Shown here in pieces: positions 7,891 through 32,777 of a stretch of 32,777 bases of DNA. The stretch spans positions 1 to 32,777 of the forward strand of contig CAMBQF010000022.1 in assembly GCA_945869825.1 (NCBI GenBank), read 5' to 3'. The notes under the pieces are model-generated. The model worked only from the letters and a program-made list of their open reading frames with translations. It was not told the origin of the DNA and did not search any database. The position numbers and the translations under genes are program-made. The stretch's first letter is position 1; each line of letters begins with the position of its first letter. Origin of the DNA: Chitinophaga pinensis (GTDB lineage Bacteria > Bacteroidota > Bacteroidia > CAMBQF01).

Positions 7891-7947
7891 CAATTGTCAG
7901 GTGATTGGTTATATAATTGACATTGACCATTGTCAACTAACCATTAC
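7891..7947 (+). repeat. Imperfect palindrome between convergent genes
   Basis: The 53-bp spacer between dtd and the aminopeptidase gene is nearly all imperfect inverted repeat: GGTGATTGGTTATATAATTG-ACA on the left pairs with the complement of TGTCAACTAACC-ATTACACC on the right, and short TTGAC/GTCAA words recur. It resembles dispersed TTGAC-rich intergenic repeats that I associate with this phylum, and could also stop transcription from both sides, although it lacks a T run. Confidence 0.5.
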
Positions 7948-9914
7948 ACCTTCACTATCTTCTTCCTGATTGCTTTCTTTAGGCTACTGCTGTCTTTACC
8001 GTAGTTAGACCATACTGTAATAAAATATACCCCGTTGCGGTAAGGTGTCATATCAATATTAAACGACCCAAACTCTGCGTTTTGAATATCTCTGCCTTCC
8101 AGTAGTTTTCCAGATATATCATATAACTCAAAGCGCACCGCAGTATACAAAGGGCTATCAAACTTTACTTCAGCAGTGTTCTTTATTGGGTTTGGGTATA
8201 CTACTATCCCGTCGTCAGAATCTATATCGGTTTTAATAACCGTATTTTGCTGAACAACCAATATTTCGGGATCTACAATTACAGAATCAACAGGGAAGCC
8301 AGGTTGAAGGTCAAATATTTGCCCGTTGTAAGTATGTTCAAGTATTATAGTAGTGTCGTTTGTAGCGCTCTTCAACCTAACAGGTAATGGCCCTTCAAAA
8401 AAGTCAACCGAGGGGTGTGTAGGCTGTTGGTTTAGTTCTATTATCAAACGGCTTGATGGAAACTGGCCCCATTTAAGTGTATACAGTGGATGTCCCTGCC
8501 CATAATACCAGTCATCAAAAAACTCAGTTAGGTCTATGCCACTTTGCTCTTCAAAATGGTATTTCAGGTTCTCCGTCAAGGCAAATTTATAGGCTATTAA
8601 AGGGTCGTTTAAGTAATGCTTTATAGCGGTAAAAAAGTTATCATCGCCAATACGTAAACGTATCATGTGTAGTAAAAAAGCTGCTTTTCGGTAGCTAAGT
8701 CTTCCATTAAATATCCTGTTGCTGGTAGTTGTGTCACTACAAAATACAGATCCGTCGGTGGCCGCTATTATATTGTCATGAGATAGTTTTTTCCATGGCA
8801 GCCAATATTGTGGTTCAGTAAATTCATACGATATGCCAGTGCAATAGGTAGCAAACCCCTCATTTAACCATATATCCTGCCAAGATCCGCAAGTAATCCT
8901 GTTGCCAAACCATTGGTGTGCCAGCTCATGCGATACCAGCTCAAACCCAAAACTGCCCATAAAGCTCATAGTTTGGTGTTCCATACCGCCGCCCCAGCTC
9001 CATTGCGCATGGCCATACTTCTCGCTACCAAACGGGTAGGGCGTAAAAAGCGAATCGAATAAGTGCATAAACCTTACGGTTTGCGGGGTTTGCTGCTGCG
9101 CTACTGCTAGGTTTTGGGGGTATACATAGTTTAATATTTCTATCGTATCTCCATGCAAATAGGCAAAGTCTGAATAGATAGAGTAATCGCTACAGGCAAA
9201 GGCTATAAGGTATGTAACAATTGGGTAACGGTGTTTCCAGCGGTAGGTTTTAGTTAGCCCGTTATCTATGCTGCTAATTAATAACCCGTTAGAGCCCACC
9301 TCATATTTTTCAGGACAGGTAACATATACATCTATCGAATCAATTTTATCATTCAGTGTTTGTTTGCAGGGCCACCAATCTCGCGCACCGTAGGGCTCAG
9401 ATAGGGTAGTCATAACCGGTATACTATCATTTTGCCAATCTGTAGTAAACGATCCAAAACCTGAATTACCAGGCACCCCATGGTAAAAAATGGATACACT
9501 GTCTGTTTGCCCAATAGCAATGCTTGATGGTAGGGTAATGGTTACAATATCATTAAAGTGCAGGTGAGAAATAAGCACCCCATTATGTTTTACAGAATCT
9601 ACAAACAAAGCATCAATCAAATCAAAAGCTACGCTGTTGACTGCTGATGTTGCAGTAAAATAAGTGGTAACAGAGCCTTTTTGTATAGCCCTAACCGCAG
9701 GGTCTACTGTTATTTCCAACCTATGGTATTTCACATCATAGTTGCTACCTGTGCCAGTAGTTACATTGGCCTGCTGGGTTGATGAAAACAATAACCCCTC
9801 GGTATACACCAGCTTATTAAATTCAACTTGTTGTGCAGCTGGAGATATATCAGGTATTTGTGCCCGAATTACTAATGCAGCTAAAAGTCCTGTTAAAATA
9901 AATAATAACCTCAT
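7944..9914 (-). CDS. T9SS-secreted M1-family metallo-aminopeptidase
   Basis: 656-residue zinc peptidase. Signal peptide at residues 1-18 (MRLLFILTGLLAALVIRA). An N-terminal beta domain is followed by the exopeptidase motif GGGMEH (variant of GxMEN) and the zinc site HELAH at 329-333 with the third ligand E352 in NEGFATY, spacing HExxH-x18-E as in M1 peptidases. The C-terminal about 80 residues, beginning VVYPNPIKNTAEVKF and ending KKIVKV, form a type A T9SS sorting domain, so the product is exported through the outer membrane and cleaved or anchored. It lacks the large helical C-terminal domain of cytosolic M1 enzymes. The upstream beta-barrel gene ends 28 bp before it, so co-transcription is likely. 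Role: nutrient peptide degradation (inferred). Confidence 0.93.
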   Translation of the reverse strand: MRLLFILTGLLAALVIRAQIPDISPAAQQVEFNKLVYTEGLLFSSTQQANVTTGTGSNYDVKYHRLEITVDPAVRAIQKGSVTTYFTATSAVNSVAFDLIDALFVDSVKHNGVLISHLHFNDIVTITLPSSIAIGQTDSVSIFYHGVPGNSGFGSFTTDWQNDSIPVMTTLSEPYGARDWWPCKQTLNDKIDSIDVYVTCPEKYEVGSNGLLISSIDNGLTKTYRWKHRYPIVTYLIAFACSDYSIYSDFAYLHGDTIEILNYVYPQNLAVAQQQTPQTVRFMHLFDSLFTPYPFGSEKYGHAQWSWGGGMEHQTMSFMGSFGFELVSHELAHQWFGNRITCGSWQDIWLNEGFATYCTGISYEFTEPQYWLPWKKLSHDNIIAATDGSVFCSDTTTSNRIFNGRLSYRKAAFLLHMIRLRIGDDNFFTAIKHYLNDPLIAYKFALTENLKYHFEEQSGIDLTEFFDDWYYGQGHPLYTLKWGQFPSSRLIIELNQQPTHPSVDFFEGPLPVRLKSATNDTTIILEHTYNGQIFDLQPGFPVDSVIVDPEILVVQQNTVIKTDIDSDDGIVVYPNPIKNTAEVKFDSPLYTAVRFELYDISGKLLEGRDIQNAEFGSFNIDMTPYRNGVYFITVWSNYGKDSSSLKKAIRKKIVKV

Positions 9915-9942: not shown

Positions 9943-10599
9943 TTAATACCGTGGCCTTCTTACTCCTCTTTTAATAATATCGGGGTCGGCTTTTATATTT
10001 CGTTCACCAAACTTCCAGTTTATACCAATTGTAACATAACTCATACCATAGCCTCCTTCTACAAAAAAGCCTAAACGTTCTCCAGGGTACCACCGCATAC
10101 CCACAAAACCGGCTACCAATGGGCTAAAACCACCATAGCGCTTATATGGGTCTGCCTCAAAAATCGTAGGCGATTGGTCATAGTATTCATCCTTAAAAAA
10201 TTCATACCTGGCCCCTGCGTTCATTCCTATGTAGCAATTAAAATGCTGGGTCATTAAAAAAGTTGGGTGCAGCGCAACCCTAAATGCCAACACTGTATTA
10301 TTCCAGGCAACATTATAACCGTTATTAGGGTACTGGTAGTAAGCATGGTGGTATGCTCCTGTAACACCTAAACTAAGCAAGCCTACTTTATTAAATCCTA
10401 ACAACCCTTTTTCATAAGATACTGATAGGGCGGGCCATTGGCTGTTATCGCTGTAAAAGCTGGATACCCAGCCAAACCCAGCACCAAAACTAATCAGCGA
10501 GTTTTTCAATTCGTACGACCTGTCTTGCGCTTTTAAACTGTTGCTTGCCAACAAACAGAATACTACAAGGCTTGATATAATTAACTTTTTAACTATCAT
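9943..10599 (-). CDS. Predicted outer-membrane beta-barrel protein
   Basis: 218 residues with a signal peptide (residues 1-24, ending SLKAQ). The mature part has alternating aromatic/glycine-rich strands of 8-12 residues, such as ISFGAGFGWVSSF, GLLSLGVTGAYHHAYY, CYIGMNAGARYEFF and LGFFVEGGYGMSYVTIGINW, as in small 8-strand barrels. The C-terminus RGVRRPRY does not show the classic terminal aromatic of porins. Exact family not recognised. It lies immediately upstream of the secreted aminopeptidase gene on the same strand. Confidence 0.78.
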   Translation of the reverse strand: MIVKKLIISSLVVFCLLASNSLKAQDRSYELKNSLISFGAGFGWVSSFYSDNSQWPALSVSYEKGLLGFNKVGLLSLGVTGAYHHAYYQYPNNGYNVAWNNTVLAFRVALHPTFLMTQHFNCYIGMNAGARYEFFKDEYYDQSPTIFEADPYKRYGGFSPLVAGFVGMRWYPGERLGFFVEGGYGMSYVTIGINWKFGERNIKADPDIIKRGVRRPRY

Positions 10600-10608
10600 G
10601 GCATTAGT

Positions 10609-11305
10609 TACCTACAAATTTATAGTTTTAACGTCTCATTTTGGTTAAAAGTTTTTACAATGAATTCGCAGCTTGAGATAACCCCTGATGCAAAGATCAT
10701 AGGTAGGCGTTACACGTTTCATATTGTTGGCGGTGATAACACAACCGGTTTTTTTAATTTATTTTAAGAGGTTAAAGACCGTTACAAATAATATATAATT
10801 ACCAAGCCTTAAACCGTTGTTGTTTATTCGTAGGATAAATTAAGGTGGTTAAGTAATTAATCAGGATTATATTTTTAATCATAAAAATCCAGATAAAAGT
10901 AAAGCGTAGCGGTTCTGATAATGCTAAAACCTATGATTCTGTTCTTGTTGCTAAACCAGAATTCCAAGATATTCTACAGGAAGGCTATTATGCGCACACA
11001 GTAGACTATACTAAGTATAAAGTAGGCGATGCTATTACTATCGTTACTTTTTTTGACGAAAAAGTATGGACTTTTATGTTTAAACATATGGGCAAAGATG
11101 TTATTCAAAACAAAATTGACAAGGTGCGCTGCATTAAGCTAAAGCCCATATTACAAAAAGGTCTGCGTGTTAAAATGACTATCTGTCTAAATGAGGATGC
11201 AAACCATTTCCATAGCGCCTAAAGGCCGATGTGCTGGCAGGGGTCATTAAACTTGATATAAAAGGTTATTCTGGTTGGGTAGCTCCTTTGTCCATAGTTA
11301 AATAG
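10609..11305 (+). pseudogene. Decayed DUF3108-family gene
   Basis: This roughly 700-bp stretch has no long open frame, yet recognisable family segments read colinearly in different frames. Frame 1 from about 10609: FNVSFWLKVFTMNSQLEI, then GRRYTFHIVGGDNTTGFFN, then after an in-frame stop (10765) EVKDRYK, stop (10789), YI. Frame 2 from about 10856: NQDYIFNHKNPDKSK. Frame 3 from about 10905 to 11222: AKTYDSVLVAKPEFQDILQ, YYAHTVDYTKYKVGD, TFFDEKVWTFMFKHMGKD, DKVRCIKLKPILQKG, NEDANH. Frame 2 again to the stop at 11303-11305: KADVLAGVIKLDIKGYSG. Order and wording match my memory of DUF3108 periplasmic proteins (TTGxFDWFFKVRDRY, the C-x-K-LxPxLQKGR block, VGxIKxDLxGY). At least three frame changes and several stops make it a dead gene. 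Family naming is from memory. Confidence 0.82.
10615..10622 (-). promoter_or_regulatory. -7 promoter box of the beta-barrel/aminopeptidase unit
   Basis: Minus strand TAAATTTG fits TAnnTTTG and lies 15 bp before the start codon at 10599. It overlaps the 5' limit of the adjacent DUF3108 relic. Confidence 0.5.
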
Positions 11306-11316
11306 CCTTATATTTG
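11287..11316 (+). promoter_or_regulatory. Promoter of truA (TTTG-N18-TATATTTG)
   Basis: A -33 TTTG (11287-11290) and a -7 TATATTTG (11309-11316) are spaced by 18 bases, close to the Bacteroidota consensus. Its upstream half lies inside the last codons of the DUF3108 relic, and the -7 box ends 6 bases before the truA ATG, implying a very short or absent leader. Confidence 0.72.
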
Positions 11317-11322
11317 TGGCTT

Positions 11323-12075
11323 ATGCCACGCTACTTTATTCGTTTAGCATACAACGGTAACAATTATAATGGTTGGCAGGTACAGCCTAATGCGCCTACA
11401 GTACAGGCCGAGGTTGAAAAGGCTTTATCCACAATACTTAGGGCTGAAACCGAAGTAGTGGGCTGTGGCCGTACCGATACAGGTGTGCATGCTTCTGATT
11501 ATTATGCTCATTTTGATTTAGAAACAGCTATAGCCAATTCTGCCGATATGGTCTATAAGCTTAATAAGCTGCTTCCTCATGCTGTAGCCATTAAAAGTAT
11601 TGCTGAGGTTAATGCTGATGCTCATGCCCGTTTTGACGCGATTAAAAGGATGTACGAATATAAAATTGTCCGCCATAAAAGCCCCTTTACCCAAGGGGTT
11701 GCGTACTATTATACCGGCAACTTAGATTTAGAGCTAATGAATAAAGCTGCGGCATTATTACTTTCTGTTAAAGACTTTAAAGCATTCAGCAAAGCCCATA
11801 CTGATGTTAAAACTACACTGTGCGATGTTACGCAGGCTGAGTGGGAGGTAAAGGGCGATGTATTGGTATTTACTATTACCGCCAACCGCTTTCTTCGTAA
11901 CATGGTTAGGGCTATAGTAGGAACCTTGCTAAATGTTGGCAGGGGTAAAATGTCTATGGCAGAGTTTAAACAGGCTATTGCCAGTCTGGAGCGCTCAGAG
12001 GCTGGAGATTCTTCTCCTGCTGAGGGCTTATATCTTGCAGAGATAATATACCCTTCAACTATATTTAAAGGATAA
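11323..12075 (+). CDS. truA: tRNA pseudouridine synthase A
   Basis: 250 residues from ATG 11323. Converts U38-40 of the tRNA anticodon stem to pseudouridine. Landmarks: RYFIRLAYNGNNYNGWQVQP at the N-terminus, the catalytic block GCGRTDTGVHA with nucleophile D52, and the C-terminal FLRNMVRAIVGTLLNVGRGK typical of TruA. An in-frame TTG at 11314 gives a longer frame, but it lies inside the promoter -7 box, so the ATG is preferred. Confidence 0.95.
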   Translation: MPRYFIRLAYNGNNYNGWQVQPNAPTVQAEVEKALSTILRAETEVVGCGRTDTGVHASDYYAHFDLETAIANSADMVYKLNKLLPHAVAIKSIAEVNADAHARFDAIKRMYEYKIVRHKSPFTQGVAYYYTGNLDLELMNKAAALLLSVKDFKAFSKAHTDVKTTLCDVTQAEWEVKGDVLVFTITANRFLRNMVRAIVGTLLNVGRGKMSMAEFKQAIASLERSEAGDSSPAEGLYLAEIIYPSTIFKG

Positions 12076-12114: not shown

Positions 12115-13314
12115 ATGATTTTCAGGTTACTTCCTATTCTTATTGTTACATCGCTTAGCGCGTGTGTTAAAGACTCTTCTAAACTAAAAATGATTCGCCG
12201 CCCTTATGTGCAAAACGTCTGGGCCGATAGTGCATCTGTTATCTGGAAAACCAATGTGCAGACAGACAATTGCCATATAATGTACGGAATCAACCAGGTG
12301 TATGCTGATAAGATGGGCAAAACGGTTAAAAACCCCGATGGTACTTTTACCCATACAGTTACCCTTACCGGCTTACAACAAGGCCAGCGCTACAAGTATA
12401 CTGTATACAATGATAATGTTATGCTTGACAATAGCGAAATGAATTTTATTGATGCACAGCGCACTGATAGTACTGTGGGTTTTAGCTTTTTAGCCTTTGG
12501 CGATATGGGGCGCAACCCTTATGATGATGGTTTTCCGCAGGTAACTGCCACCCAAATATTGGCGTTGCCAAGACACCCTGATTTTATTACAGCACTTGGC
12601 GATATTGTATATCCTTCGGGCGAAAGCAGCAAGTACGATGAATACCTGTTTGGTCCGTTTGCCTATGCTTTTTCTAATATCCCGTTTTACCCTGCACTAG
12701 GTAACCACGATTGGGGAGTAAACCCCGATGAGAACTTTTGTAAGGAGTGGAAACTGCCAAACAACGAACATTACTACAGCTACAATTATCAGAATACTCA
12801 TTTTATCACCCTCGATTCTAAAGATGGCGACTTCTACAACTTTGCAGAGCAAAAGGCATGGTTGATTAACGATTTGCAACAGGCGCAGGGCTTGTACGAT
12901 TTTATTGTTGTAAGCCTGCACCACCCCGGCCGCAATTGCACCTATAAAGGCGACGGGGCTAATGTAATGACGCTATATCCCATCTTTGCTCAATACAATG
13001 TAGATCTTGTTTTAAACGGCCACGCCCATACCTACGAACGTTTGCACCCTTTTGATGCTAATGGTAATGTATTAGAACAATTCCGTAACAACATTCAACA
13101 GTATCCTGACCTTCCAAACGGTTTTATCTCTATCACAGCCGGCGCCGGCGGTGTTTTACAGCCTAATTTTACACCCGATGGTTGCAACTTAGCGGCAAAG
13201 CAGTACCACAGGGGCCACTTTATACAATTCGAAATTTCCGGCAAAAAGCTAACAGCCAAAGCCTACGATTTACAAAGCGGTCTTGTGTTCGACCAGTTTG
13301 ACATGCAGAAGTAA
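12115..13314 (+). CDS. Lipoprotein metallophosphatase, purple acid phosphatase-like
   Basis: 399 residues. Signal peptide with lipobox LSAC ending at residue 17, then an N-terminal fibronectin-III-like domain (residues about 25-115, YVQNVWADSASVIWKTN) as in purple acid phosphatases, then a calcineurin-like metallophosphoesterase domain. All metal-binding blocks are visible: GDMG with D130, GDIVY, GNHDW, SLHHPG and GHAHTYER. It probably hydrolyses phosphomonoesters or related substrates at the cell surface or in the periplasm; the substrate is unknown. It starts 39 bp after truA, with a TATATTTTAG element just upstream that could be a poor promoter, so it may be co-transcribed with truA. Confidence 0.9.
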   Translation: MIFRLLPILIVTSLSACVKDSSKLKMIRRPYVQNVWADSASVIWKTNVQTDNCHIMYGINQVYADKMGKTVKNPDGTFTHTVTLTGLQQGQRYKYTVYNDNVMLDNSEMNFIDAQRTDSTVGFSFLAFGDMGRNPYDDGFPQVTATQILALPRHPDFITALGDIVYPSGESSKYDEYLFGPFAYAFSNIPFYPALGNHDWGVNPDENFCKEWKLPNNEHYYSYNYQNTHFITLDSKDGDFYNFAEQKAWLINDLQQAQGLYDFIVVSLHHPGRNCTYKGDGANVMTLYPIFAQYNVDLVLNGHAHTYERLHPFDANGNVLEQFRNNIQQYPDLPNGFISITAGAGGVLQPNFTPDGCNLAAKQYHRGHFIQFEISGKKLTAKAYDLQSGLVFDQFDMQK

Positions 13315-13324
13315 TAAAAGAAAA

Positions 13325-13385
13325 ATTTTAATGGCTCTCCTCATGCAAAGGGGGAGTGCTCAAGCCAAAGGCGGGTGGGATGGGG
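13325..13385. repeat. Candidate dispersed intergenic repeat
   Basis: The spacer between two convergent genes is unusually GC- and purine-rich compared with its flanks (CTCCTC..GGGGGAG with a 7-base loop, then GGCGGGTGGGATGGGGTGA). I recall similar CTCCC..GGGAGG..GGCGGGTGGG..GGGGTGA units in intergenic regions of other Bacteroidota, where they appear as phantom peptides reading GGWDGV. Only one copy is in this window. Confidence 0.35.
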
Positions 13386-13390
13386 TGAAA

Positions 13391-14101
13391 TTATTTAATC
13401 CACCGCATTTTAATAACGCCCCAAAAGGCTTCCTGGAAAATCTTTACACTCATTTTAGAGTGGCCAAGTACCCTGTCTTTAAACGTAATAGGGACTTCTA
13501 TTATAGGAACAAGCTTTTTAATGGCGCGGTATTTCATTTCTATCTGAAAAGCGTAGCCCAAAAACTTAACGTTATCTAAGTCAATTTTAGCAAGGGCCGA
13601 TTTATGGTAGCAAACAAAACCAGCTGTGGTATCGCGAATGCTTATGCCTAATACTATGCGTACATATACAGATGCAAAGTACGACATCAACCTGCGCTCT
13701 AATGGCCAGTTTTCAACCTTACCATCTTTAACATAGCGAGAGCCTATTGAAAGTTGCGCGCCACGTTCGGTACAAGCCAGTAATAAACGTTCCAAATCGG
13801 CAGGGTTATGAGAGAAATCGGCATCCATCTCAAAAATGTAATCATAGCCTTTTGCTAATGCCCACTTAAAACCATGTATATAAGCCGTTCCTAACCCTTG
13901 TTTGCCATGACGCACTTCCAGGTGCAGGCATTCGCTAAACACATTTTGTAATCTCCTAACAATATCAGCCGTTCCGTCAGGCGATGAATCGTCTACAATC
14001 AAAATATCAAATGCTGTTTTTTGAGAGAATACAGCCCGTATAATAGGCTCAATATTCTCCTTTTCATTGTAGGTTGGTATAATTACAATTGATGTGTTCA
14101 C
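13391..14101 (-). CDS. Polyprenol monophosphomannose synthase-like GT2
   Basis: 236-residue glycosyltransferase family 2 protein of the dolichol-phosphate mannosyltransferase (DPM1) type. Visible: IIPTYNEKENI at the N-terminus, DDSSPDGT (nucleotide binding), the metal-binding DADFSHNP near residue 96, GSRYVKDGKVENWP and the C-terminal block ITFKDRVLGHSKMS, all standard for the family. It transfers mannose or another sugar from a nucleotide sugar to a polyprenyl phosphate for later use in periplasmic glycosylation. No C-terminal membrane helices are present, as in the single-domain type. The start is GTG at 14101; no ATG is available nearby. It has a consensus promoter of its own and is separated from the upstream foldase gene by a strong terminator. 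Confidence 0.92.
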   Translation of the reverse strand: MNTSIVIIPTYNEKENIEPIIRAVFSQKTAFDILIVDDSSPDGTADIVRRLQNVFSECLHLEVRHGKQGLGTAYIHGFKWALAKGYDYIFEMDADFSHNPADLERLLLACTERGAQLSIGSRYVKDGKVENWPLERRLMSYFASVYVRIVLGISIRDTTAGFVCYHKSALAKIDLDNVKFLGYAFQIEMKYRAIKKLVPIIEVPITFKDRVLGHSKMSVKIFQEAFWGVIKMRWIK

Positions 14102-23572: not shown

Positions 23573-26185
23573 ATGAAAATAAACAGTCAATATAAACAGA
23601 TTAACTACGGCACTATATTAGATAGCAGTCAGGAAGTTTTTTGTGTTTTTGATATTGATAAAAATGTTGTTTCATATAATGATGAGTGGTTTAAGCTAAC
23701 AGGGGTAAATCTGTCAGACAAAGGCGCCAATGTGTTTTTGTCGATATTATTTTCTGATAAGGATATAAAAAATTTTACCCGTCATTTTGATAAAGCGGTA
23801 GCACAAAATCAAATAGTTAAGAGCGAGTTCCGCATTCGAAAAAACGAATTGGCTTTTCATACTATTTCATACACGTTGGTATATGATGGTAAAACAACTG
23901 TTTTTTTATCAGGACGCGTGGCAACATCTGATAAAAGGTTAAATCGCCTTAGGTCATTAATAGCTGAGCATACTACCTTGGGTGCATGGAAATATGATTT
24001 AATCGATAGTTCTTTAACATGGACTATAGGAACTTATGCAATTTTAGAAGCTGACGGAACTACCAGAATTACCCCTGAAACTTTATTAGATATTTGCCAT
24101 CCCGATTTTTTAGATGAATTATCTGAAAAATACTATAAACTTATTGAACAGGGTGAAGAATTTGATATTGAGGTAAAACTACTTAAACTCCGCAGTGGCA
24201 GCGAGATGTGGGCTAAAATATCTGGTTATGCTTACTTCAATGAATTAGGAAAGATAGAGCGGGTATATGGCATAGTGCAGGATATAGATAAGTATAAAAA
24301 GGCCGAAATAAATATTACTAACGAAAAACAAAAGGCCCAGATATACCTTGATATAGCAAGGGTAATTATTGTTGTATTAAAACCAGACCAAACAGTTGAA
24401 ATAATTAATAAAGCCGGCTGCGAAATTCTGGGATATAGAGAAGAGGAAATAGTAGGCCTAAACTGGTTTGATAAGGTTGTTCCACAATCAATAGCCGATT
24501 TATTAAAAGCTTCTTACGAAGATTTTATTTCAGGTAACCGGGATGATGACCACTCAGCTTATGAAAATCCGCTAATCACAAAATCTGGAGAACTGCGTTA
24601 TGTTTCCTGGAAAAATTCAATTTTAAGGGATAAAGAAGGAAAGATAATAGCTACTATCAGTTCCGGCGAAGATATTACCACAAGGAAAGTGGCAGAAGAA
24701 AAACTGCGACTTGAGCAAGAGCGCTATCGGTTAGCATTACAAGGTGTAGCCGCTGGTATTTGGGATTTCTTTGATATTAAAAACCAAAAACTATATGTCT
24801 CTCCCAAGTATCTGGAATTGATTGGCCGAGAATATGAAGAGAGAGAATATAGCCTGACAGAATTGGAATCGTGGGTAGACCCTGAATACCTTAAAATTGT
24901 ACAAGATGCTTTTTACAGGTATTTAGAAGTTAAAAATGATTATTACAGTGTTGAAGGCAAGTTTATAATGGGAGATGGCACAACGCGTTGGTTTTTATTT
25001 AGTGGAAAAGCACTTTGGGATAATGAGGGTAATGCTATAAGGGCGGTAGGCTCTATAATTGATATAGATGATAGGAAAAGGGCTGAAGAGCAAATTAAGG
25101 AGCGCGATGAAACACTTAAGGCTATAATTAATAATGGCCTTATGCATTCTATATTAGTTAATAAGGATGGGTTTATTTTAATGGTTGATGAACCTGTTAA
25201 TGTAAGGGCCGAAGAATTATATAAAAGCCCAATGCGCCCGGGTATGCACCTTTCTAAATTTGTACAGCCCGGCGATTATGGCTTGTTTGAAGAGCGTATT
25301 GCTAAAGCCTTGAGCGGAGAGGCTATTCTTTTTGAATATAATTTTAAAATTAATGAGGTGGATTTTTGGTTCCTGCTAAGTTTTGCGCCTGTTATAAAGT
25401 CGGATAATTCGGGTGTTGATAAAGTATTGCTCAACACCTTAGAAATAACAGAAACTAAAAAAGCTGAACTGGAGGTAATCAGGGCCAAACAACTGGCAGA
25501 AGAGGTTAGTAAATTAAAGTCTAATTTTTTGGCAAATATGAGCCACGAAATACGCACACCATTAAATGGTATGATAGGCCTTTCCAACCTGTTGGAGAAA
25601 GAAACAGACCTGGTTAAAATAAAAGAGCTTGTAACACTGCAAAAGCAAAGTAATAACCGGCTGCTGAATACACTAACTGGTATTTTAAATTTTGCAAGGC
25701 TTGAGTCTGAATTTGAAGGCATGCCCCTTAAGCGTATCAATGTGTTTGATATTATTACCAATGCCTATAATTCATTAAAAACCCAGGCCAGTGCTAAAAA
25801 TTTAGAAATTAGCCTGGTTTGCAATGACAGTAACTTATATACCCTGGCTGACGATGGCTTATTTTACCAGGTGTTTCATAACTTGATACACAACGCCATT
25901 AAATTTACCAACCAAGGAAAGGTAGTGATAGTTATAGGCAAAAAAGAAAAGTATATAAATGTAAATGTATCAGATACAGGAATTGGTATTGCCAATGATT
26001 TTGCAGATAAAATATTTTTTCCATTTTTGCAGGAGAGTCAGGGAGAAAACAGGCATTATCAGGGAAACGGCTTAGGCCTGTCAATAGCAAAACGCTATGT
26101 TGAACTATTGGGTGGCAGTATTACAGTTAACAGTGTAAAAGGGAAAGGCAGTTCATTTGAAGTATTGTTACCATTAGTAACATAA
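23573..26185 (+). CDS. Cytoplasmic multi-PAS sensor histidine kinase
   Basis: 870 residues without a membrane helix or signal peptide. About five PAS domains in series: residues about 15-110 (SSQEVFCVFDIDKNVVSYND), 125-245 (GAWKYDLIDSSLTWT), 255-375 (PDQTVEIINKAGCEILGYRE), 385-505 (GIWDFFDIKNQKLYVS) and 515-630 (SILVNKDGFILMV). PAC-like ends such as DIDDRKRAEEQ separate them. Then HisKA with H658 in NMSHEIRTPLNG and HATPase with N-box NLIHNAIKFTNQG, G1 DTGIGIA and G2 GNGLGLSIAK. Ends at residue 870 without the receiver domain of hybrid kinases; a single-domain receiver is encoded 10 bp downstream. Ligands of the PAS domains are unknown. Confidence 0.92.
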   Translation: MKINSQYKQINYGTILDSSQEVFCVFDIDKNVVSYNDEWFKLTGVNLSDKGANVFLSILFSDKDIKNFTRHFDKAVAQNQIVKSEFRIRKNELAFHTISYTLVYDGKTTVFLSGRVATSDKRLNRLRSLIAEHTTLGAWKYDLIDSSLTWTIGTYAILEADGTTRITPETLLDICHPDFLDELSEKYYKLIEQGEEFDIEVKLLKLRSGSEMWAKISGYAYFNELGKIERVYGIVQDIDKYKKAEINITNEKQKAQIYLDIARVIIVVLKPDQTVEIINKAGCEILGYREEEIVGLNWFDKVVPQSIADLLKASYEDFISGNRDDDHSAYENPLITKSGELRYVSWKNSILRDKEGKIIATISSGEDITTRKVAEEKLRLEQERYRLALQGVAAGIWDFFDIKNQKLYVSPKYLELIGREYEEREYSLTELESWVDPEYLKIVQDAFYRYLEVKNDYYSVEGKFIMGDGTTRWFLFSGKALWDNEGNAIRAVGSIIDIDDRKRAEEQIKERDETLKAIINNGLMHSILVNKDGFILMVDEPVNVRAEELYKSPMRPGMHLSKFVQPGDYGLFEERIAKALSGEAILFEYNFKINEVDFWFLLSFAPVIKSDNSGVDKVLLNTLEITETKKAELEVIRAKQLAEEVSKLKSNFLANMSHEIRTPLNGMIGLSNLLEKETDLVKIKELVTLQKQSNNRLLNTLTGILNFARLESEFEGMPLKRINVFDIITNAYNSLKTQASAKNLEISLVCNDSNLYTLADDGLFYQVFHNLIHNAIKFTNQGKVVIVIGKKEKYINVNVSDTGIGIANDFADKIFFPFLQESQGENRHYQGNGLGLSIAKRYVELLGGSITVNSVKGKGSSFEVLLPLVT

Positions 26186-26195
26186 ACCAATTTTA

Positions 26196-26579
26196 ATGAA
26201 CTTGAATAGTATGGCAGGAAAAATACTTTATGTTGAGGATGATGAGATTAACGCGTATTTAATGCGCCGGTATCTAAACAAATGGGAGGTTGATTTGGCC
26301 AGCGATGCCGAAACAGCACTAATACTTGCAAAACATGAACAATATAAAATTGTCTTATTAGATATCAATTTGGGCGATAGCAAAATGACAGGTGTTGAGG
26401 CTATGAAGATTTTAAAAGGGAACCCCCTGTATATTAATACTGTTTTTGCTGCTGTTACAGCCTACGCTATGCCCGAAGACAGGGACAGATTTTTGCTGGA
26501 TGGGTTTGATGAATACTTTTCTAAACCTGTTGATTACGAAAATTTAATAACCTTTATCGAAAAGACATTAGACGATTAA
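26196..26579 (+). CDS. Stand-alone receiver-domain response regulator
   Basis: 127 residues, a CheY-like receiver only, without DNA-binding or enzymatic output. Acidic pocket VEDDEIN, phospho-acceptor Asp in VLLDINLG, the Thr/Ser and Lys switch residues in AAVTAYAM and YFSKPV are all present. Begins 10 bp after the PAS kinase gene, so the pair is one transcription unit and the kinase is its likely phosphodonor. Two candidate starts: 26196 (MNLNSMAGK) and 26211 (MAGK); both are possible. Output may be through protein interaction or a phosphorelay (inferred). Confidence 0.92.
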   Translation: MNLNSMAGKILYVEDDEINAYLMRRYLNKWEVDLASDAETALILAKHEQYKIVLLDINLGDSKMTGVEAMKILKGNPLYINTVFAAVTAYAMPEDRDRFLLDGFDEYFSKPVDYENLITFIEKTLDD

Positions 26580-31497: not shown

Positions 31498-32777
31498 ATG
31501 AATTCATCTATACGCTTAAAATTTTCATTGTCAATACTGTTTGTGTCATTTGCAATTCAAATAGGTTTGGCTCAACCTGCTCCGCCACAGGGGGTAAATT
31601 ATCAGGCTGTCGCAAGAGATAACTCTGGAGTTATTTTAGCAAATAACCCAATCGATGTCAGGATTGCGATTCTTTCTGATACTATCACTCCGGTTATTCA
31701 ATACGAAGAGGAGTTTCTTGGTTTGCAAACAAACCAGTTTGGTTTATTCAATCTGGTAATTGGTCAGGGTAATCCTATTGGCGGTATACAAACTTCATTT
31801 GCCAATATACCATGGGGAGCATCGGAGACTTTTGCAAGGATACGTGCAAATACGGGTACTGGTTATATAAATATGGGTACCATGAAATTATGGTCTGTTC
31901 CCTATGCCCTATATGCGGGTTCTGTTAATGGGGCGCAAGGCCCAACAGGTCCTCAAGGCCCTGTCGGTCCATTTGGCCCACAAGGTGCTCAGGGTGCCCA
32001 GGGACCCGCCGGTTCGCAAGGTCCTGCAGGCCCAACCGGTTCGCAAGGATTAGCAGGCCCGGCTGGTCCTCAAGGAGCACAAGGTGCCCAAGGTCCTGCC
32101 GGTCTTCAAGGTCCTACAGGTTCAACTGGTCCGCAAGGTTTAATAGGTCCTGTTGGTCCTCAAGGTCCCCAAGGTCCAGCGGGTGCAGATGGAATCGATG
32201 GCACAAACGGAGTAGACGGTGCACAAGGTCCTGTTGGACCAGCGGGTCCCCAAGGCCCAGCCGGTGCAGATGGAATCAATGGCACAAACGGAGTAGACGG
32301 TGCACAAGGTCCTGTTGGACCAGTGGGTCCTCAAGGTCCTGCCGGCGCAGATGGAATCAATGGCACAAACGGAGTTGACGGTGTGCAAGGCCCTGTTGGA
32401 CCAGCGGGTCCTCAAGGCCCAGCCGGTGCTGATGGAATCAATGGTATAGATGGAGCAGTTGGCCCACAAGGTCCTGCCGGTGCAGATGGAATAAATGGCA
32501 CAAACGGAGTAGATGGTGCAGTTGGTCCTCAAGGCCCAGCGGGTCCTCAAGGTCCTGCTGGCGCAGATGGAATCAATGGAGCAAACGGTGTTGATGGTGC
32601 GCAAGGTCCTGTTGGACCAGCAGGTCCTCAAGGTCCTGCCGGCGCAGATGGAATCAATGGTATAGATGGAGCAGTTGGCCCACAAGGTCCTGCCGGTGCA
32701 GATGGTATAAATGGCACAAACGGAGTAGACGGTGCACAAGGTCCTGTTGGACCAGCGGGTCCTCAAGGCCCAGCTGG
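31498..32777 (+). CDS. Secreted collagen-like Gly-X-Y repeat protein, 3' end outside window
   Basis: The frame is open from ATG 31498 to the window edge (426 residues visible). Signal peptide residues 1-25 (ends IQIGLAQ) and an N-terminal domain of about 115 residues beginning [18 protein letters not shown] and ending [15 protein letters not shown], a domain often placed before collagen-like or tail-fibre-like repeats in Bacteroidota. From about residue 143 every third residue is Gly ([14 protein letters not shown]...), with Gln, Pro, Ala and Asp in X and Y positions, so a triple-helix-forming, probably trimeric, surface fibre is likely (inferred). Pro-rich triplets dominate first, then [17 protein letters not shown] blocks repeat. 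The C-terminus, which would show any T9SS domain, is not in view. Confidence 0.9.
32185..32777 (+). repeat. 81/54-bp tandem repeat array inside the collagen-like gene
   Basis: Units start with the codons for ADG (GCAGATGG) at 32185, 32266, 32347, 32428, 32482, 32563, 32644 and 32698. The steps are 81, 81, 81, 54, 81, 81 and 54 bp, so every step is a multiple of 27 bp (three collagen triplets). The 27-residue unit reads [16 protein letters not shown] plus [11 protein letters not shown]; the 18-residue form is [18 protein letters not shown]. Units are nearly identical at the DNA level. The array runs to the window end. Confidence 0.9.

Follow-up and report, generated by a model that had tools for sequence, protein, structure and literature searches.

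Bacterial pseudogene relics as old as the one described here are unusual. The gene from which this relic derives belongs to the DUF3108 family (PF11306), to which the available parts of the papers naming the family assign no function. A YmcC-fold entry is named in PMC4364669. This entry was not reached by sequence, because searches of solved structures yielded either two chance-level matches (E 0.14 and 0.63, with the domain of the congener G001) or, at E 0.01, none (with the profile A1 described below). The G001 domain matched no NCBIfam family, and no constant neighbour partner of DUF3108 was seen by eye at the loci of relatives, one locus (L016) being left out because spurious frames hid the gene.

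DUF3108 genes are widespread and seldom missing in the class, yet they can be lost, and their absence is recurrent. In a survey of 197 genomes of the class at least 90% complete, sampled from a larger group, PF11306 was found in 179, including the genome analysed here (G000) and G001. Two families lack it in every sampled member (f10 and f28, 6/6 each), and six more genomes without it, one of 0.5 Mb, are distributed over six other families. The match in G000 is the weakest best match among the 179; the next weakest has an E-value of 4.6e-34 (G100). In a search of 20 relatives and G000 itself, 17 of the 18 genomes outside the genus feature a full-length DUF3108 match devoid of stops, and the profile search found no match in the remaining one (G011).

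The genus was compared through three genomes: G000, which carries the window (the whole stretch of 32,777 nucleotides that was analysed), G001 (CP096135.1), which was described, as a member of the order AKYH767, from a Lake Zurich amoeba culture (PMC9583780), and G002, a pond MAG (assembly of JAIXUZ010000423.1).

Fragments of a DUF3108 gene upstream of truA

Profile A1 was derived from ten sequences out of 22 full-length places found in the search of relatives, the G001 sequence entering via locus L038. Within G000, it aligns to four colinear pieces in three frames, interrupted by five stops (Table 1), with E-values of 1e-23, 2e-7, 4e-5 and 0.002. The Pfam profile itself recognises piece 3 (E 5.9e-8; 33.3 bits against a curated cut-off of 26), its sole match in the genome, and A1 covers the same piece from 10920 (10920-11210, profile positions 133-233). 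No second convincing DUF3108 match is present elsewhere in G000, as A1 gave, up to an E-value of 10, a single further match, which is weak (0.05) and contains a stop. The relic is thus a member of PF11306 by descent, as evidenced by the score above the cut-off and by the four A1 pieces. Its closing TAG (11303-11305) falls opposite the G001 stop codon in the alignment.

Table 1 Features of the relic and of its immediate neighbours (positions in the window).
Feature	Position	Strand	Remarks
Barrel gene, 218 aa	9943-10599	-	Third-position-biased changes; "beta-barrel" is the label of the original prediction
Candidate -7 element of the barrel gene, TAAATTTG	10615-10622	-	15 nt before the barrel start
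Junction left by the shared 5' loss (net about 240 bp)	10640-10660 (approximate)	+	From distances between the barrel ATG and codon 19
DUF3108 (PF11306) pseudogene	10660-11305	+	A1 profile positions 53-263 of 264; three frames, colinear
Relic piece 1	10660-10806	+	Window frame 1; A1 positions 53-101; two TAA inside (10765, 10789)
Nonsense codon TAA common to G000 and G002	10765-10767	+	Tyr codon (TAC) in G001; three-way alignments
Relic piece 2	10805-10891	+	Window frame 2; A1 positions 102-130; two TAA inside (10841, 10850)
Relic piece 3	10902-11210	+	Window frame 3; inside a 121-codon stop-free stretch; PF11306 positions 91-191
Relic piece 4	11207-11299	+	Window frame 2; A1 positions 233-263; one TAG inside (11213)
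Candidate -7 element of truA, TATATTTG	11309-11316	+	6 nt before the ATG
truA, tRNA pseudouridine(38-40) synthase, intact	11323-12075	+	Third-position-biased changes

The region does not encode a live PF11306 protein. The single open frame over about 209 domain positions is missing, as stops and frame changes intervene and no ORF reaches 80 aa; the N-terminal signal peptide is also missing, the 5' end being gone and the profile match beginning at position 53. In relatives a signal peptide is visible by eye, and G001 has one before its frame change.

These results bear out the original prediction, which described the gap as a DUF3108 pseudogene decayed over several frames. The gap holds no long ORF, as it had stated (no start-bearing ORF of at least 80 aa between 10600 and 11313), and the profile search that it proposed returned DUF3108 matches in all three frames, colinear and accompanied by lesions. 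The peptides that it quoted were recovered by six-frame reading in the claimed frames, namely GRRYTFHIVGGDNTTGFFN and EVKDRYK in window frame 1, NQDYIFNHKNPDKSK in frame 2, TVDYTKYKVGD and DKVRCIKLKPILQKG in frame 3, and KADVLAGVIKLDIKGYSG again in frame 2. It had also taken the relic to adjoin the barrel gene. The relic is real but is recognisable only from about 10660, the segment 10600-10659 being sequence upstream of the barrel gene.

Shared lesions and flat codon positions

G001 has the DUF3108 domain at the matching place and in the same orientation, within a single 236-codon open frame (E 5.6e-49). G002 carries a DUF3108 remnant only (E 4.1e-12) with two TAG codons. The comparison of sister genomes suggested by the original prediction therefore found the domain open in one congener and decayed in the other. 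Two lesions are common to G000 and G002. One is the nonsense codon at 10765; the other is the loss of the 5' part of the gene, comprising the start codon, the signal peptide and the first 18 or so codons of the G001 open frame. Counted from the barrel start codon, codon 19 of this frame is reached after 309 nt in G001, against 67 nt in G000 and 68 nt in G002, a net loss of about 240 bp. Since both lesions are shared, the gene died before G000 and G002 split. The original prediction had missed this largest lesion; the 5' loss and the sharing of lesions are additions of the present analysis. A frame-changing gap at G001 codon 92 is also found in both genomes and was not counted as shared, because its length differs (2 and 1 nt, respectively).

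Other lesions are private. Found in G000 only are three frame-changing indels (near 10789-10802, near 10883 and near 11210-11214), which agree with the "about three" frame changes foreseen, together with a deletion of 12 nt near 11172 that keeps the frame, and four stops (10789, 10841, 10850 and 11213). Both stops that had been named at the outset, at 10765 and 10789, are real, and the last three are further ones. The exact places of gaps move by some bases between the two three-way alignments. G002 has frame changes and stops of its own in the relic.

The syntenic G001 gene, against which these disabling lesions are read, has an open domain and one frame change between the signal peptide and the domain, so that a fully intact reading frame is found in none of the congeners. 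This single frame change is most likely a sequencing error, because the genome was assembled with Flye from Nanopore R9.4.1 reads (PMC9583780) and 5 of the 24 window genes compared are likewise split between frames in G001; a real early lesion is the less likely reading. One of the split genes is the counterpart of the gene at 75-1928, labelled gyrA by eye. Claims of gene loss drawn from CP096135.1 need care, given this proportion of split genes.

Substitutions were assigned to codon positions over 649 columns of the relic, using G001 as the outgroup. At positions 1/2/3, the G000 branch carries 21/22/23 substitutions and the G002 branch 21/12/21, and the third-position share (44/120) is not different from one third (p = 0.44). 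The corresponding counts (G000, then G002) are 6/3/17 and 5/2/19 in truA, 7/5/28 and 3/3/18 in the barrel gene, and 7/7/18 and 5/2/14 in codons 1-179 of the gene at 7944-9914. The relic differs sharply from these three flanking genes in the ratio of positions 1+2 to position 3 (76:44 vs 55:114; Fisher p = 2.3e-7). As its codon positions are flat, the relic has decayed without detectable selection since inactivation. The neutral pattern is weaker in the 3' half, in which 36/83 substitutions (43%, two branches pooled) fall at third positions (p = 0.06); this half still differs from the flanking genes (p = 0.0004). In contrast, relic sites at which G001 differs from both G000 and G002 are distributed 18/18/55 (p = 1.5e-7). 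The gene was therefore under purifying selection earlier, or is still so in G001.

Candidate promoters at the edges and other features of the window

Promoters of Bacteroidota contain a -7 element, TAnnTTTG, the last G of which is at -5 in Flavobacterium johnsoniae, according to PMC6847099. This motif is found at both edges of the relic in all three genomes and, on the truA side, a TTTG is located at a spacing of 18 from the candidate -7 element in two of the three. Because TAnnTTTG occurs 46 times over both strands of the window, the case for promoters is built on the position and recurrence of the motif and not on its presence. The relic is likely bounded by the promoters of both neighbours. 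On the barrel side, G000 and G002 are identical at 55/60 columns, significantly more than in the body of the relic (460/595; p = 0.008). On the truA side, identity (31/37 columns) does not differ significantly from that of the body (p = 0.42). The original prediction suggested that the relic may persist owing to the truA promoter in its last codons. The recurrence of the motif in the three genomes favours this view, which the conservation of the truA side does not, and such a role is a plausible candidate. Applied to the candidate promoter, the -5 rule predicts a truA leader of about 2 nt; truA might thus be translated from a nearly leaderless mRNA (window 11309-11323) if this promoter holds. 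No Pfam or NCBIfam family was found for the 218-aa barrel gene.

DNA similar to 10400-11400 was not found in the plasmid collection, and no viral contig contained a 25-base exact pattern taken from the relic.

Additional features of the window were recorded. An 870-aa gene, a histidine kinase by eye (23573-26392), is absent from the matching place in the G002 contig C40, as is the first part of the next gene, a response regulator by eye. G001 has both genes, the 870-aa one being split over frames. A short, mostly intergenic element at 13312-13395 has relatives elsewhere (78-89% identity over 28-78 bases), with one more match in G000, five in G002 and one in G001. The segment 1923-1964, at and just past the end of the gene at 75-1928, has several matches in G002 and G001 (87-100% identity over 26-42 bases), which perhaps reflect low complexity only. 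The window ends in a long repetitive stretch (31700-32777) that displays repeats in a six-frame reading and has many partial matches in G001 and G002.

Origin and course of the loss

Taken together, the data almost certainly describe a gene killed in the common ancestor of G000 and G002, decaying separately thereafter in the two lineages, the relic of which lies between the likely promoters of its neighbours. That a live gene has merely been broken by wrong indels in the assembly is a very unlikely reading, to the point of being negligible. Frame changes of this kind do exist in the Nanopore assembly of G001, but a nonsense substitution and a 5' loss are common to G000 and G002, and separate assemblies are not expected to share errors. 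Moreover, none of the 22 window genes present in the fetched G002 contigs has a frame change, while the G002 relic has several; this check covered 22 of 24 window genes on three contigs, in which some genes are cut by contig ends and two are missing. Substitutions spread evenly over the codon positions in the relic, unlike those in the three flanking genes tested, and this also argues against such errors, and the original prediction was right in rejecting them.

Use of the sequence in its present state was weighed in two forms. It is highly improbable that the 3' part (10902-11210) continues to be translated into a useful truncated protein. The stop-free stretch of 121 codons in G000 and the third-position share in the 3' half might suggest such a use, but piece 3 offers no start codon yielding 80 aa, and the signal peptide and first 52 profile positions are gone. 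Read in the G001 register, the G002 counterpart is interrupted by three stops (codons 109, 120 and 184), with a fourth shortly after it (210), and two deletions (codons 114 and 131) change its frame. In neutral simulations, a 108-codon piece remained open in 34% of runs with 36 substitutions and in 27% with 46, so that, given also the three stops in G002, the open stretch is no evidence of use; in G000 alone, substitutions in the 3' half are spread 13/14/19 over the codon positions. A present role as a non-coding element (a leader, a small RNA or an antisense RNA) is improbable as well. It would fit the candidate promoters at the edges and the higher conservation of the barrel side, yet the body retains just 460 of 595 ungapped columns identical between G000 and G002, with 46 gap columns, its best 40-base bins (e.g., 10880-10919, 37/41) are isolated, and no Rfam match was obtained at gathering scores over 10400-11500.

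Returning to a loss in the common ancestor, the course of events may be outlined as follows. The ancestor of the AKYH767 genus had one copy of a gene encoding an exported DUF3108 protein, flanked by the divergently oriented barrel gene and by truA. Before G000 and G002 diverged, their common ancestor lost the 5' end of this gene and its Tyr codon became TAA; either event may have come first. Each lineage afterwards acquired private indels and stops under no detectable selection, leaving about 650 bp between the apparent promoters of both neighbours. These promoters may be the reason why the edges escaped deletion.

The loss, dated to before the split of two species, shows that a protein found in most sampled genomes of the class can disappear from freshwater Bacteroidota. 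One of the three congeners has the gene and two lack it, a set in which correlated changes can be sought. For instance, the loss might be tied to a change of the envelope in G000 and G002, and a comparison with f10 and f28 could reveal the role of DUF3108, a rather unlikely prospect at present.

Compared with the PF11306 family, the relic shares the sequence profile, the colinear order of motifs and a syntenic ortholog with an open domain in G001. It differs in the lack of a start and of a signal peptide, in three frame-changing indels and in several stops, and is no longer a coding member. As a gene relic it is ordinary and well documented, and it predates the split of G000 and G002. As in other bacterial pseudogenes of lineage-specific gene loss, ancestral lesions are shared, later lesions are private and codon positions are flat. 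Nothing of note sets it apart from bacterial pseudogenes generally, except that it is rather old, as judged from the 460 of 595 ungapped columns that are identical in G000 and G002.
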